Made by a program: the position numbers and the translations under genes. A model generated the notes under the pieces. That model did not search any database. It was not told the origin of the DNA and worked only from the letters and a program-made list of their open reading frames with translations. A DNA stretch of 41,888 nucleotides from an uncultured Bacilli bacterium (lineage in GTDB: Bacteria > Bacillota_I > Bacilli_A > RF39 > UBA660): contig CANRAA010000003.1 in NCBI GenBank assembly GCA_947628485.1, forward strand, positions 1 to 41,888, given 5' to 3'. This document shows positions 4,643 to 29,724 of this stretch, in pieces. Within the stretch, counting starts at the first letter, position 1, and each line of letters begins with the position of its first letter.

Positions 4643-5212
4643 ATGCAAAATGATACAATTGAAAAAATAACTGATTTTATATTTATGGGTAAAAAAATAG
4701 AAGAATTGGATTTTTATAATTTAGCGATTGTTTTAGGAAATAATTTATATGAAGAAACAGCTGAATGTTTAAAAGATTTAGTAAATTTAAATAAAATTGA
4801 TGCTACTTCCACTATTATTATTTCGGGAAAAAAAGGAACATTAAATAAAGATTTAGATGGAACAGAAGCGGAAATTATTTATCAAAAATTTTTAAAATAT
4901 AATTTAAATATCCCTTGTCTTTTAGAAAAAGAAGCTACCAATACCAAAGAGAATTTATTATTTAGTTTAAAATATTTAGAAGATATAAAGTCTTATCGAA
5001 AAATTTTATTAATTTGTAAATCATTTTTAGCTAGAAGAGCTTTTATGTGTGCTTATAATTTAGACTATCCAATTGATAGTATTGATATCATTGGGGTGGA
5101 AAAAGAATTTGGTAAAGATAATTGGTTTACTAATGCTTTATCTCGCAAAAGAGTATTAGCGGAATTAGAAAGAATTAGTCTTTATACTGAAAAAGGAGAT
5201 TTAAAGTTATAG
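4643..5212 (+). CDS. YdcF/SanA-like (DUF218) family protein
   Basis: AIVLGNNLYEE, TIIISGKKG, E..ATNTKENLLFS layout typical of DUF218. Confidence 0.7.
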   Translation: MQNDTIEKITDFIFMGKKIEELDFYNLAIVLGNNLYEETAECLKDLVNLNKIDATSTIIISGKKGTLNKDLDGTEAEIIYQKFLKYNLNIPCLLEKEATNTKENLLFSLKYLEDIKSYRKILLICKSFLARRAFMCAYNLDYPIDSIDIIGVEKEFGKDNWFTNALSRKRVLAELERISLYTEKGDLKL

Positions 5213-5246
5213 AAATTTGTGTTATTATAGAAGTTGGTGATGATAC

Positions 5247-6173
5247 ATGAAAATTGGGATACCAAGAGCATTTTTATATTATAAATATCATGTTTTATGG
5301 GAAACGTTTTTTGACGAACTAGGTATTGAATATGTGGTAAGTCCCAAAACGAATAAAGATATTATTAAAAGAGGCGAAATGCATGCCATGGATGAGTCAT
5401 GTTTATCTAGTAAGATTTTTACGGGACATGTTGATTATTTAATTGATAAATGTGATTATATTTTTATTCCCAGAGTAGCATCCCTAGGGGCTCATAAAGA
5501 TATTGTTTGTTCAAAGTTTCAAGCCATTTATGATGTTATTAATAATATTTATCGAGAAAAGAACTTAAAAATATTATATTATAGTATTGATATTTTAAAT
5601 AAAGATACGGAACTTAAAGCTTTTCTTAAGATGGGTAAGTTTTTAGGTAAAAAAAAGGTGCAAGTTTTAAAGGCTTATTATATAGCCAAACAAGCCGAAA
5701 AGACCGCCAAAATGATTGAAATAAACAATCAAAATAATTTACTTAAAAATGATAAATTAAAAATATTAATTGTTTCGCATCCTTATAATATTTATGATGA
5801 ATATGTAGGTAAGCCCATTACTGATACTTTAAAAGATTTAGGAAGTGAGCCTATTTTAGCGTGTGTTGTTGATGAGAAAAAAGCGAGAGAAAAAGCCAAA
5901 AAGATTAGTGCCACTTTACCTTGGACTTTTAATAAAGAATTAGTCGGAGCCATTTCTTTATACTTTGATAAAGTTGATGGAATTATTTTAGCTTCCTCTT
6001 TTCCTTGTGGGCCAGACTCTTTAGTTAATGAAATGATTGTCAGAAAGATTAAAGGAAAACCCATTATTAATTTAGTTTTAGATGGTCAAGAAGGAACAGC
6101 GGGACTAGAAACAAGACTAGAGAGTTTTGTGGATATTTTAAATTTACAAAAAGAAGGTGGCATTCATGAGTAA
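5247..6173 (+). CDS. 2-hydroxyacyl-CoA dehydratase-related protein (DUF2229-like)
   Basis: MKIGIPRAFLYYKYHVLWETFFDELG opening, DESCLSSKIFTGHV, PCGPDSLV, DGQEGTAGLETRLESF. Confidence 0.8.
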   Translation: MKIGIPRAFLYYKYHVLWETFFDELGIEYVVSPKTNKDIIKRGEMHAMDESCLSSKIFTGHVDYLIDKCDYIFIPRVASLGAHKDIVCSKFQAIYDVINNIYREKNLKILYYSIDILNKDTELKAFLKMGKFLGKKKVQVLKAYYIAKQAEKTAKMIEINNQNNLLKNDKLKILIVSHPYNIYDEYVGKPITDTLKDLGSEPILACVVDEKKAREKAKKISATLPWTFNKELVGAISLYFDKVDGIILASSFPCGPDSLVNEMIVRKIKGKPIINLVLDGQEGTAGLETRLESFVDILNLQKEGGIHE

Positions 6174-21144: not shown

Positions 21145-22263
21145 ATGAAAAAGAAAGTATTAAATATTTTAGTAGTTATCTTAACAATAAGTATAATAGT
21201 TGAAGGTTATATCTGTTTTAAAAATGTTAAAAATAATAAAGTATTAGAAGATATCAAAACAGTAGATATATTTGATAATAAAGATAAGACCATATCTATA
21301 ATGGTCCAAGACCCCACAACCTTTGAATACCAATCAGATACAAGTAGAACTTCATGGCCCCAAAAGACAGAATACATATATGCTGGAACTAAATGTACTG
21401 ATGCGAGTGGAACAGATGTAGGAGATACAACACCATATTTAAAATTTGACGAAAGTGATTATACAGCAACCATAACAACTAAGAAAACAATCTATTGTAC
21501 CTTATACTTTGCTAATGGAAGACCAGCCTTAGAAGTGTTAAAGGCCAAAGGAGGAGATTACTATGCTGGAGGAGGAGACCATACAACAGTAGTGGATGAA
21601 TTGTACCGATTTAAAGGAACAGTAGGCCAAGTAGATAATAATTATATATGTTTAGGAGCATCCGAAAATCCTGATACATGTAAAGCAAATTCAGAAAACA
21701 TGTATCGAATAATCGGAGTCACAACAGATGGCAAACTAAAAGTGATAAAAGCTAAAAAATATGGAGATAATCAAAAATGGAATAGTAAAGCCTCCTCGGA
21801 TGTAAAATGGAATGCATCGACTTTATATACATACTTAAATAGTACATTTTATAATTCACTTAATGCAAGAATACAAGGATTAATAGATAACTATACATGG
21901 AAAATGGAATTAACAACATCAACACCAGGAACAACAACAGGAAATCAAGATGGAACAATACAAAATCATATAGGGTTAATGTATGGAAGTGATTATGTAA
22001 ATGCAGGAGCACAAGATAAAACAAATTGGTTATTCATACAAAATGGTTATAGTGGAAACCCAGCAGAGTTTGAATGGACAATGAGTAGTTGTGGCTACAA
22101 CGGCGGTGCCCGTGCGTGGTTTATGCGTACAGGCGGCTACTTTGGCGTGGAGCTTGTGAGCGACCCGTATGCAGTTCGTCCGGTCTTCTATCTGTTATCC
22201 ACAGTAGGATTAATAGGTGAAGGAACAGTATCTCAACCATACACTGTAACAACTATTAAATAA
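21145..22263 (+). CDS. Membrane-anchored surface protein with C-terminal lectin-like/DGR-target-like domain
   Basis: N-terminal TM; MYRIIGVTTDGKLKVIKAKKYG, TYLNSTFYNSLNARIQGLIDNYTWKME, IGLMYGSDYVNA, EWTMS...AW...AVRPVFYL shared with the other two paralogues. Confidence 0.75.
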   Translation: MKKKVLNILVVILTISIIVEGYICFKNVKNNKVLEDIKTVDIFDNKDKTISIMVQDPTTFEYQSDTSRTSWPQKTEYIYAGTKCTDASGTDVGDTTPYLKFDESDYTATITTKKTIYCTLYFANGRPALEVLKAKGGDYYAGGGDHTTVVDELYRFKGTVGQVDNNYICLGASENPDTCKANSENMYRIIGVTTDGKLKVIKAKKYGDNQKWNSKASSDVKWNASTLYTYLNSTFYNSLNARIQGLIDNYTWKMELTTSTPGTTTGNQDGTIQNHIGLMYGSDYVNAGAQDKTNWLFIQNGYSGNPAEFEWTMSSCGYNGGARAWFMRTGGYFGVELVSDPYAVRPVFYLLSTVGLIGEGTVSQPYTVTTIK

Positions 22264-22361: not shown

Positions 22362-22652
22362 ATGAGTACGATATCTAATACGACTAATATGACTATTAGA
22401 ATTGATAAAGATTTAAAGAAAAGTGTTGATGAATTATTTAAAAAACTGGGAACTACTACTAACTCCGCAATTAATATGTTTTTAAGACAATGTGAGAGGG
22501 AACAAGGTTTGGCATTTAAACCAACAATAGCTCCAAAACCTAATAAAGAATTATTAGAAACTTTACAAGAAATAGAAGATTATAAAAAAGGAAAGGTAGA
22601 TCTTCCTAGTTTTGATACAACTAAGGAATTATTTGATTATTTAAATAAATAA
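22362..22652 (+). CDS. RelB/DinJ-family antitoxin-like protein
   Basis: NMTIRIDKDLKKSVDELFKKLGTTTNSAINMFLRQC ribbon-helix-helix pattern; AYTK-like C-terminus. Confidence 0.85.
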   Translation: MSTISNTTNMTIRIDKDLKKSVDELFKKLGTTTNSAINMFLRQCEREQGLAFKPTIAPKPNKELLETLQEIEDYKKGKVDLPSFDTTKELFDYLNK

Positions 22653-26820: not shown

Positions 26821-26868
26821 AATAATGAAATTTATATTCGGTATTTAAAACAAATAAGGAGAAGTAAA

Positions 26869-28334
26869 ATGGAAGAGAATAATATAAGTAATAATAACTT
26901 TAATAGAAAGAAAATGGTAAAAATAAGTATACTTGGCTTAGTAGCGTTAATTTTGGCAATCGGGGGGGGGTTACCTATGCCTACTTTACCCTAGGGGCAA
27001 TAAATAATTCAGAAGAAACAAATATAACAATTAAAACCGGAGCTAAAAAGAATATAAAATTAACTGGGGGAACAACAAATTATAAACTACATTTAGAAGT
27101 ATCTGATATGGCCCAGAATAAAATAAATTCAGTTTATTATGGGACAACAGATGTAAATAAAAATTATGAAACAGAAGAAGAAAAAGGAACAATAATATTA
27201 GGTAATATAGAAACTGAAGGAAGTTTAGTAGATGAATATACATGTAATGCCACAGTTAATATAGCATTAGATGGAGAAATGCAAAGTGCATTAAAAGATA
27301 ATGATTTAGTATTAGTAATAACTCAAGGAGAAACAACAAATACAATAGATTTATCAGAGGATATAACATCTCCTACTTTTTCGTTTGATTTAAAACAAAT
27401 AGAGCCAATTAAAGCTTACTTAAAATTTACAAATCAAGAAACCAATCAAAGTGGAATAGCCGGAAAAGAATTAAACATAACAATTAATATAAATGATTTT
27501 GCATGTGAGATAAAAAAGAGTGCTTTACCAGTATTAAAAAGTACCACATCACCAGAGTATTTAAAAGAAGCAGTAGAAAATGATGAACTTTTAAGATATG
27601 TAGGAACAGCAACCGATGCCAACGAACATAGATTAAATAATTATATATGTTTTGGAACAACTGATAAAAGTACATGCACAGAAAATCCCGATACATACAT
27701 GTATCGAATCATAGGAATAACAACCGAAAATGTAAATAGAGATTTAGGACTTGTTCCAAATCAAATAAAGATAATAAAAGCAACACCATCAAATACAAGC
27801 CAAGCATGGTCAACAGATTATGAAACAGATATAGATTGGGATAATGAGAGTAATACCGTAAAAATATATTTAAATAGCATATTCATGGAAACAATAACAA
27901 AGTTAGTAGGACCACATAATTGGAGTGATTTAATAACAAGTCAACAATGGTACAAAGGAGATAATACAAGTGCAAGTAGTAGTGAAATAGAAGTAAAAAC
28001 ATTAACAACAAGTAGTTATAAAATAGGCTTAATGTATGCCAGTGATTATATAAATGCAGGTCCAAATACTTATTCAGATAGTTTAAATAATTGGTTATTC
28101 ATCCAAAACGGCTGGAATGGAAATACTGAAGAAAATGAATGGACAATGAGTAGGTATGGCAAGAACAGCTACGACGGTTACAGTGCGTGGTATGTGGGGG
28201 CGGGCGCCACCTTGAACGATGCTGGTGTACATTGGGATACGCCTGTAGTCCGTCCCGTCTTCTATTTAATACCAAATATAACCTTAACAGGTGAAGGAAC
28301 AGAAACAAGTCCATTTATAATAAGTGAGGAGTAA
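26869..28334 (+). pseudogene. Membrane-anchored surface protein gene, frameshifted (phase-OFF) at a G9 tract
   Basis: ATG at 26869 gives MEENNISNNNFNRKKMVKISILGLVALILAIGGG then stop at 26992-26994; adding one G (or removing two) restores GVTYAYFTLGAINNSEETNITIKTGAKK... into ORF 27108-28334. Confidence 0.85.
26962..26970 (+). repeat. Homopolymeric G9 tract
   Basis: ATC GGGGGGGGG TTA in an otherwise AT-rich gene. Confidence 0.95.
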
Positions 28335-28338
28335 GAAG

Positions 28339-29724
28339 ATGAATAAAAATAATAAAAGAATTATAATTATATCTACAATAGTATTAGTAATAGCCTTAAT
28401 TTTATCAGTAGTGGGAGTTTCTTATGCTTTCTTTAACTTACAAATAAATGGTGAAGATACAACAACTAAAATAGAAATATCAACGGGAGATGCTAATGGA
28501 ATAATATTATCAGGTAAAGTAGAAAACTTTCATATAACAGTAGATGCCGATGATATGGCTTATAATAATATGGGGTATTATTATGCAACAAATGAAGATA
28601 AAAATTATGTCAAAAATAAAGAAGATGGGATAAAAGAATTAGGAACAATAGAAATAAAGGGAGCATTAGAAAAACCAAATACATGTGATGCTACAATAAA
28701 AGTAGAGTTAACATCTAGTATATTAGAAAGTATTCAAGAAGGAGACTTTACCTTAGGTTTAATATATGGGAGTAATGAAACAGAAATAGATTTAAAGAAC
28801 ATACCTAGTGATGGAACAATTATAGAATTTGAACTTGATGGTAAAACAAGTCCATCATATATACAAGCCTATTTAAAATTAAATAATGCCAATAGAGATC
28901 AATCATATTTAGCAAGTCAAGAAATAAATGTAAAAGTAAATGTAGAAGATTTTATGTGTGAAGCAAGTGATGGCATACCACCACTTGAAATGTTAAAACA
29001 AACAGGTGGAGAAGTATTTGCAGGTGGAGGAGATCATACAACATTAGTGGATGAATTATATAGATATGTAGGGACATATGAAGAAGTTACAAACAACTAT
29101 ATATGTTTAGGGAAAACATTTAAAGATACATGTCAAGATGGAGAAAACATGTACAGGATAATTGGGATAACAGAAGATGGAAAATTAAAAGTAATAAAGG
29201 CAAAAAAATATGGAACAAATCAAAGATGGTTTAGTAGTAGTTCAAATAGTGAAAATTGGGGTTCAACAGAGGTATACACATATTTAAATAGTACATTTTA
29301 TAAATCATTAGATAAAAGAATACAAGGATTAATAGATAATTATACATGGAAAATGGAATATAGCAATAGTTATCCATGGGGGAGTGCAATAGTAACAAGT
29401 GAAGGAACAGTAACAGCAAATATAGGTTTAATTTATGCCAGTGATTATGTAAATGCATATAAAGATTTTTCGCTAGAAAACTGGTTATTTATTTCTCATG
29501 GATTGAATGAAAATGTAGAAGAAAACGAATGGACCATGAGTAGATATGGTTATTTCGGTGATGACGACACTTATCGTGCGTGGACTGAACTTACAGATGG
29601 ATTTATGCACGGGAGTCTTGTTGATAATGCGTTTGCTGTACGCCCTGTCTTTTACATAAAACCTAATATCACCTTATCTGGTGAAGGAACAGAAAGTAAT
29701 CCATTTATAATCCATACTAAATAA
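28339..29724 (+). CDS. Membrane-anchored surface protein with lectin-like/DGR-target-like C-terminal domain
   Basis: MNKNNKRIIIISTIVLVIALILSVVGVSYAFFNL N-terminus; C-terminal domain paralogous to 21145-22263 and 27108-28334. Confidence 0.78.
   Translation: MNKNNKRIIIISTIVLVIALILSVVGVSYAFFNLQINGEDTTTKIEISTGDANGIILSGKVENFHITVDADDMAYNNMGYYYATNEDKNYVKNKEDGIKELGTIEIKGALEKPNTCDATIKVELTSSILESIQEGDFTLGLIYGSNETEIDLKNIPSDGTIIEFELDGKTSPSYIQAYLKLNNANRDQSYLASQEINVKVNVEDFMCEASDGIPPLEMLKQTGGEVFAGGGDHTTLVDELYRYVGTYEEVTNNYICLGKTFKDTCQDGENMYRIIGITEDGKLKVIKAKKYGTNQRWFSSSSNSENWGSTEVYTYLNSTFYKSLDKRIQGLIDNYTWKMEYSNSYPWGSAIVTSEGTVTANIGLIYASDYVNAYKDFSLENWLFISHGLNENVEENEWTMSRYGYFGDDDTYRAWTELTDGFMHGSLVDNAFAVRPVFYIKPNITLSGEGTESNPFIIHTK

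Follow-up and report, generated by a model that had tools for sequence, protein, structure and literature searches.

A probable phase-variable poly-G tract in a surface-protein gene of an uncultured Bacilli bacterium, and similar tracts across its genus and family

In Campylobacter jejuni, the genes that are switched by G tracts encode mostly glycan enzymes. In Neisseria, the porA and opc genes have a G or C tract between the -35 and -10 boxes, which alters the length of the promoter spacer. And in exported proteins of the SipW/TasA type, a G-x-TYAYF motif ends the signal helix. Slippage tracts and retroelement diversification are each already known: C. jejuni NCTC11168 has 29 poly-G or poly-C tracts of seven or more (PMC4965091), and diversity-generating retroelements, such as Mtd/Avd/Brt of Bordetella phage BPP-1, have been surveyed (PMC6642488). 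ON/OFF switching by slippage and the rewriting of binding domains by retroelements are normally described apart. Here we describe a run of nine G's in a gene of an uncultured Bacilli bacterium. We think it very likely that this run is a contingency tract whose slippage turns the gene ON or OFF, and that it belongs to a set of poly-G tracts on surface genes across the genus and family.

The G9 tract and the gene around it

The window that we analyzed is a stretch of 41,888 nucleotides (about 27% GC) from an AT-rich genome of about 1.3 Mb. Its runs of G have lengths of 1–5, except for a single run of 9. Across the whole genome, there are 10 runs of at least 9 G's, while Markov models trained on the window predict 0.04–1.3. 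The features that concern us, with positions in the window, are:

21145–22263, forward strand: third family member, with DUF6273 (E = 2.6e-10), tractless, with a clearer variable-repeat signature
26835–26846, forward strand: conserved element TATTCGGTATTT in the 5' region; the start codon follows about 23 bp later
26856–26862, forward strand: Shine-Dalgarno-like AAGGAGA, read directly
26869–26994, forward strand: 9-G frame, translated as a shortened signal/anchor peptide of 41 amino acids (OFF)
26962–26970, forward strand: G9 run, a putative contingency tract; it occupies the Gly codons in the motif of the signal peptide
26970–28334, forward strand: downstream frame, 454 codons without a stop, putative surface protein; joins the start codon only at 7, 10, or 13 G
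28152–28254, forward strand: variable-repeat-like segment of the window gene, homologous to the template repeats of a diversity-generating retroelement
28339–29724, forward strand: neighboring tractless paralog

An ORF that resembles RelB-type antitoxins lies at 22362–22652 (Pfam, E = 2e-9).

An earlier note on this DNA, made from the sequence alone, proposed that the G9 run switches off a surface-protein gene, with a stop at 26992, and that 10 or 7 G's would restore the frame. Our recomputed translations agree. The run is indeed nine G's, within an AT-rich putative surface-protein gene. From the ATG at 26869, the frame with 9 G's ends at a TAG (26992–26994) after 41 amino acids, while 7, 10, or 13 G's give products of 487, 488, or 489 amino acids that end at the stop at 28332–28334. 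All other tract lengths give short products of 40–46 amino acids (for instance, 40 with 6 G's and 45 with 8). The earlier note's match to the SYAFFNL region of the paralog at 28339 is also correct: with 10 G's, the translation becomes ...ALILAIGGGVTYAYFTLGAINNSEETNITIKTG and aligns in register with VVGVSYAFFNL from that gene. The paralog begins just 4 bp past the window gene's stop, so a switch in the window gene may also affect the second gene by translational coupling.

The note placed the tract after the membrane-anchor helix. The tract is instead at the end of the signal/anchor helix, inside the Gly codons of a G-x-TYAYF motif. In the ON frame this motif reads GGGVTYAYF. A tractless paralog from the sister species G008 carries IVVGTTYAYF at the position of the tract: it has IVVGTTYAYFTMGTINN where the window gene, with 10 G's, has LAIGGGVTYAYFTLGAINN. 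This suggests that the tract originated in a Gly codon, within a signal motif resembling that of SipW/TasA. The genome encodes a SipW-like signal peptidase (TIGR02228 above its cutoff, NF046067 below its cutoff), and no family model matched the window protein itself. The N-terminal half of the window protein has no Pfam match, and DUF6273, which is present in 17 of 30 relatives, is absent from this protein. When we looked for a C-type-lectin fold in the target domain, a profile search of solved structures (PDB) found no relative, and the predicted structure of the downstream frame, made with three window proteins, had a pLDDT of 37, which is too low for the fold to be used.

An extended form of the 5' motif precedes most of the coding-tract genes that we read from this genome and from G008, as well as a few tractless relatives. 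The element itself (TATTCGGYATTTNNAACA, at 26835–26846 in the window and at other loci) lies about 110–125 bp upstream of the coding tracts and is a possible shared regulatory site.

Is the gene simply a decaying pseudogene with a fixed frameshift? The window gene is out of frame in the assembly, and paralogs without any tract exist. However, the ortholog in G008 (81% identical in DNA across 221 bp at the 5' end, and 60% identical in protein downstream) also has nine G's, is also in the OFF frame, and is followed by the same neighboring gene. The downstream frame is stop-free in both species over 445 aligned codons. In a neutral simulation, the probability of seeing no stop was 0.0012 after 100 substitutions, and none of 5,000 runs stayed open after 187. 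The 454 stop-free codons of the window gene are thus unlikely to have persisted by chance. Outside of the variable repeat, substitutions between the orthologs favor third positions (95, 98, and 139 at the three codon positions), with a dN/dS of about 0.51, which indicates only moderate constraint. Inside the repeat, dN/dS is about 1.4, as estimated from just 36 codons. The earlier note had allowed for a fixed 9-G tract with decay downstream; decay now looks unlikely. By this comparison, the window gene is kept intact on both sides of the tract, and we consider the pseudogene explanation highly improbable.

Poly-G tracts across the genome, genus, and family

The genome has 13 runs of at least 8 G's, and we read all of them in context. 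Seven lie within genes, where they immediately follow a hydrophobic helix at the N-terminus, and six are in promoter spacers. Of the coding tracts, those in the window gene and in its counterparts on contigs C11, C33, C34, C61, and C77 have 9 G's and are out of frame; the tract on C81 has 8 G's and is in frame. The upstream tracts are on C12, C20, C22, and C95 (two tracts), along with a looser case on C18. Most of these have TTGACA, or a near match, before the run and TATAAT or TATACT directly after it, so that the run is near the -10 box. In every case, coding or upstream, the sense strand is the one that carries the G's.

We read 60 more stretches, from nine other species in the genus, and the same two placements recur. 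Altogether we have 82 distinct tracts: 57 in promoter spacers, 21 in coding sequence, and 4 others. Relative to the downstream gene, the G's are again on the sense strand, and almost all of the genes that follow promoter tracts encode proteins with a single N-terminal signal or anchor helix. By eye, three of these four resemble one of the two types; the fourth is odd and is on a prophage-like contig. (In G012, two G9 runs on contig C39 lie near a prophage-like tail-protein ORF, outside of the surface-gene pattern.) A scan of viral contigs for alleles of the tract found none.

Across the 38 genomes of the genus, there are 66 runs of exactly 7 G's, 410 of exactly 8, and at most 259 of 9 or more. 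(These are sums of per-genome counts; the last figure counts 9-mer positions and is hence an upper bound.) By chance, each added G should make a run several times rarer, yet in the genus the counts rise with length. In the broader family, G9 runs are present in 65 of the 117 genomes that we sampled (from 116 genera), and some genomes have tens of them. Contexts from four of the family's genera again include many spacer tracts, mostly with 10 G's. Three members of the genus (G001, G004, and G019) have no G8 or G9 runs at all and provide a natural contrast for judging what disappears along with the tracts. The longest run that we saw, of 15 G's, is in another genus of the family (G131, contig C56:6789–6803).

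Tract lengths differ among close copies. Among tracts with near-identical flanks in a single genome, four tandem promoters of G009 have 10, 9, 9, and 8 G's, and four tracts of G010 have 9, 9, 11, and 10. This comparison covers paralogs and other species. The placement of the tract at the same site in other genes and in the sister species, its presence in both genes and promoters, its lengths of 8–11 in close relatives, and the conserved frame downstream all support the architecture of slipped-strand phase variation that the earlier note had proposed. Loss of mismatch repair was considered as the cause of tract instability and rejected, because this genome encodes MutS1, and 34 of the 38 genomes of the genus contain MutS domain I.

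We propose that slippage during replication would alter the tract's length, that 8, 9, or 11 G's would leave the window gene OFF, and that 7, 10, or 13 G's would turn it ON. The ON product, of about 488 amino acids, would combine the SipW/TasA-like signal motif with a C-terminal domain similar to those that the genome's diversity-generating retroelement rewrites. More broadly, the poly-G tracts would control surface proteins with N-terminal anchors, either through the reading frame or through the length of the promoter spacer. From the sequences, we infer that cells with 10 or 7 G's arise by slippage of DNA, and that these cells would export the protein, display it at the surface, and use it to bind a ligand.

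Within a genome, tract lengths are narrower than might be expected of freely switching loci. Runs of 8 G's number 34 in G005, 45 in G017, and 37 in G030, whereas runs of at least 9 number at most 4, at most 4, and none, respectively. Conversely, G008 has one G8 run and as many as 22 longer ones. The dominant length is specific to the species (8 or 9 in this genome, G003, G005, G008, G017, and G030; 10 in some other genera) and is nearly uniform over tens of loci. Among the 82 tracts, 69 have exactly 9 G's, but this figure is biased because the relatives' contexts were picked from hits with at least 9 G's first; the whole-genome counts are unbiased.

These consistent lengths bear on two alternatives. 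First, the true tract might have 10 G's, so that the gene is ON and the assembly is in error, as the earlier note had also allowed. Homopolymers are prone to error, and many of the tracts are at the ends of contigs. However, the separately assembled sister species also has 9 G's, and random error would not be expected to yield modes that are consistent over tens of loci and yet differ by species (8, 9, or 10). An assembly error is thus very hard to credit.

Second, the tract might be fixed at about 9 G's, with the full-length protein made by a constant fraction of slippage by the RNA polymerase or the ribosome. The strikingly uniform length within a genome would fit such programmed slippage. 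So would the state of the coding tracts: only 1 of the 19 whose frame could be assigned is in frame, and the other 18 are out of frame, despite the conserved frames downstream. But the same nine G's would require opposite shifts in different genes (to 10 or 7 in genes like the window gene, and to 8 or 11 in the TTATTG type), and programmed slippage would be meaningless in promoter spacers, where most of the tracts lie. It also seems inconsistent with lengths of 8–11 among close copies. We consider programmed slippage improbable, and we prefer phase variation by slippage of DNA.

The promoter tracts also hint at a default OFF state. Where the spacer could be read, the optimal length of 17 bp is rare (3 of 57 in one count and 1 of 33 in another); spacers of 15, 16, and 19 bp are common. 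Promoters can still be active with spacers of 16 or 18 bp. The counts of spacers and of frames are not independent, since paralogs share flanking sequences, and the choice of the -10 box is sometimes ambiguous, so a default OFF state is suggestive only.

A retroelement and its variable repeats

The earlier note proposed that the tract is combined with a candidate hypervariable binding domain. This idea gains support because the genome holds a diversity-generating retroelement that targets this family of proteins; in the case of the window gene, the proof is only partial. Contig C7 encodes a reverse transcriptase (374 amino acids, with GLPIGNMTSQ and YMDD motifs), an Avd homolog (PHROG, E = 4.2e-15), and an ORF similar to MutS domain I, alongside a template repeat:

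C7, about 5190–5290: template repeat
C7, 6958–8810: accessory ORFs and reverse transcriptase

Further template repeats, for a total of three, lie beside family members on C85 and C2, without an adjacent reverse transcriptase; a single reverse transcriptase may thus act in trans on several templates. Of the 38 genomes of the genus, 20 have Avd. (Contig C24 encodes a second reverse transcriptase, of 323 amino acids, which is retron-like.)

Nine family members elsewhere in the genome differ from the template repeats mostly at A; the window gene does so more weakly. With symmetrical scoring, the gene on C7 has mismatches at 19 of 36 A's and 1 of 58 other positions (p = 4e-9), and the gene on C45 at 21 of 37 and 3 of 60 (p = 1e-8). 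The gene on C11 also carries a G9 tract, ahead of this same reading frame, and has mismatches at 21 of 31 A's and 8 of 66 other positions (p = 6e-8).

For the window gene, the repeat on C2 is a related template rather than its own, and the corresponding figures are 15 of 31 and 10 of 64 (p = 0.001, symmetrical scoring). The segment's best match is a template repeat of the species G031 (score 79, as compared to a maximum of -5.5 for shuffled sequences); template repeats of other species were located with a codon-based scan. The segment also has 10–15 non-A mismatches. Its own template was not found in this genome assembly; it may fall within the tenth of the genome that the assembly lacks, or it may have been lost. 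The gene at 21145–22263 has mismatches at 25 of 35 A's and 10 of 59 other positions (p = 2e-7). For this alignment and the one to G031, mismatches at A were penalized less, so the p values are descriptive.

The overlap between tracts and retroelement targets is real, as judged by these alignments, but partial. It is strong for C11 and weaker for the window gene, C81, and C18. The tract genes on C77, C34, and C33 had no repeat match, and the clearest promoter tracts mostly serve other surface families. A two-layer system is conceivable, and we put it forward tentatively: the poly-G tracts would select which family members are expressed, the multi-template retroelement would rewrite their binding domains, and a tract length set by the species (8, 9, or 10), with frames out of register and spacers seldom at the optimal 17 bp, would leave each locus OFF or weak in most cells.

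Comparison with known systems

Both slippage switching and retroelement rewriting appear to act on one family of surface proteins and, for at least one paralog (C11), on a single gene. If this is true, then the bacterium varies both which receptors it shows and what they bind. The nearly uniform tract length of each species raises another question: does it reflect a mutational equilibrium in the population or a selected default-OFF state? A limited search of the open-access literature turned up neither slippage tracts on the targets of retroelements nor phase variation by poly-G in lineages of this kind.

One close parallel is with the loci of C. jejuni. In both, a single small AT-rich genome holds numerous G tracts with lengths of about 8–11, along with frame switching and surface functions, which are predicted here. 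Unlike in C. jejuni, the tracts described here are also widespread in promoter spacers, and their targets are predicted surface proteins with export signals. The presence of MutS, and the diversification of some targets by a retroelement, further set this system apart.

The promoter tracts resemble those of porA and opc in that the tract would change the spacer length. However, here there are several to tens of such promoters per genome, they serve related surface genes, and the tract abuts or is near the -10 box.

The cassette on C7 is similar to retroelements of the BPP-1 type (PMC6642488) in having a reverse transcriptase, Avd, and template repeats rich in AAC and AAT, with A-directed mutation at the 3' end of several targets. 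It differs in that the targets are putative bacterial surface proteins, some of which have an ON/OFF tract, and in that the cassette includes the ORF similar to MutS domain I.

Finally, the window protein shares the G-x-TYAYF motif with SipW/TasA-type proteins, and the genome has a gene for a SipW-like signal peptidase. Unlike in those proteins, the Gly codons of the motif are replaced by a slippery G tract, and the N-terminal half is without a Pfam family.
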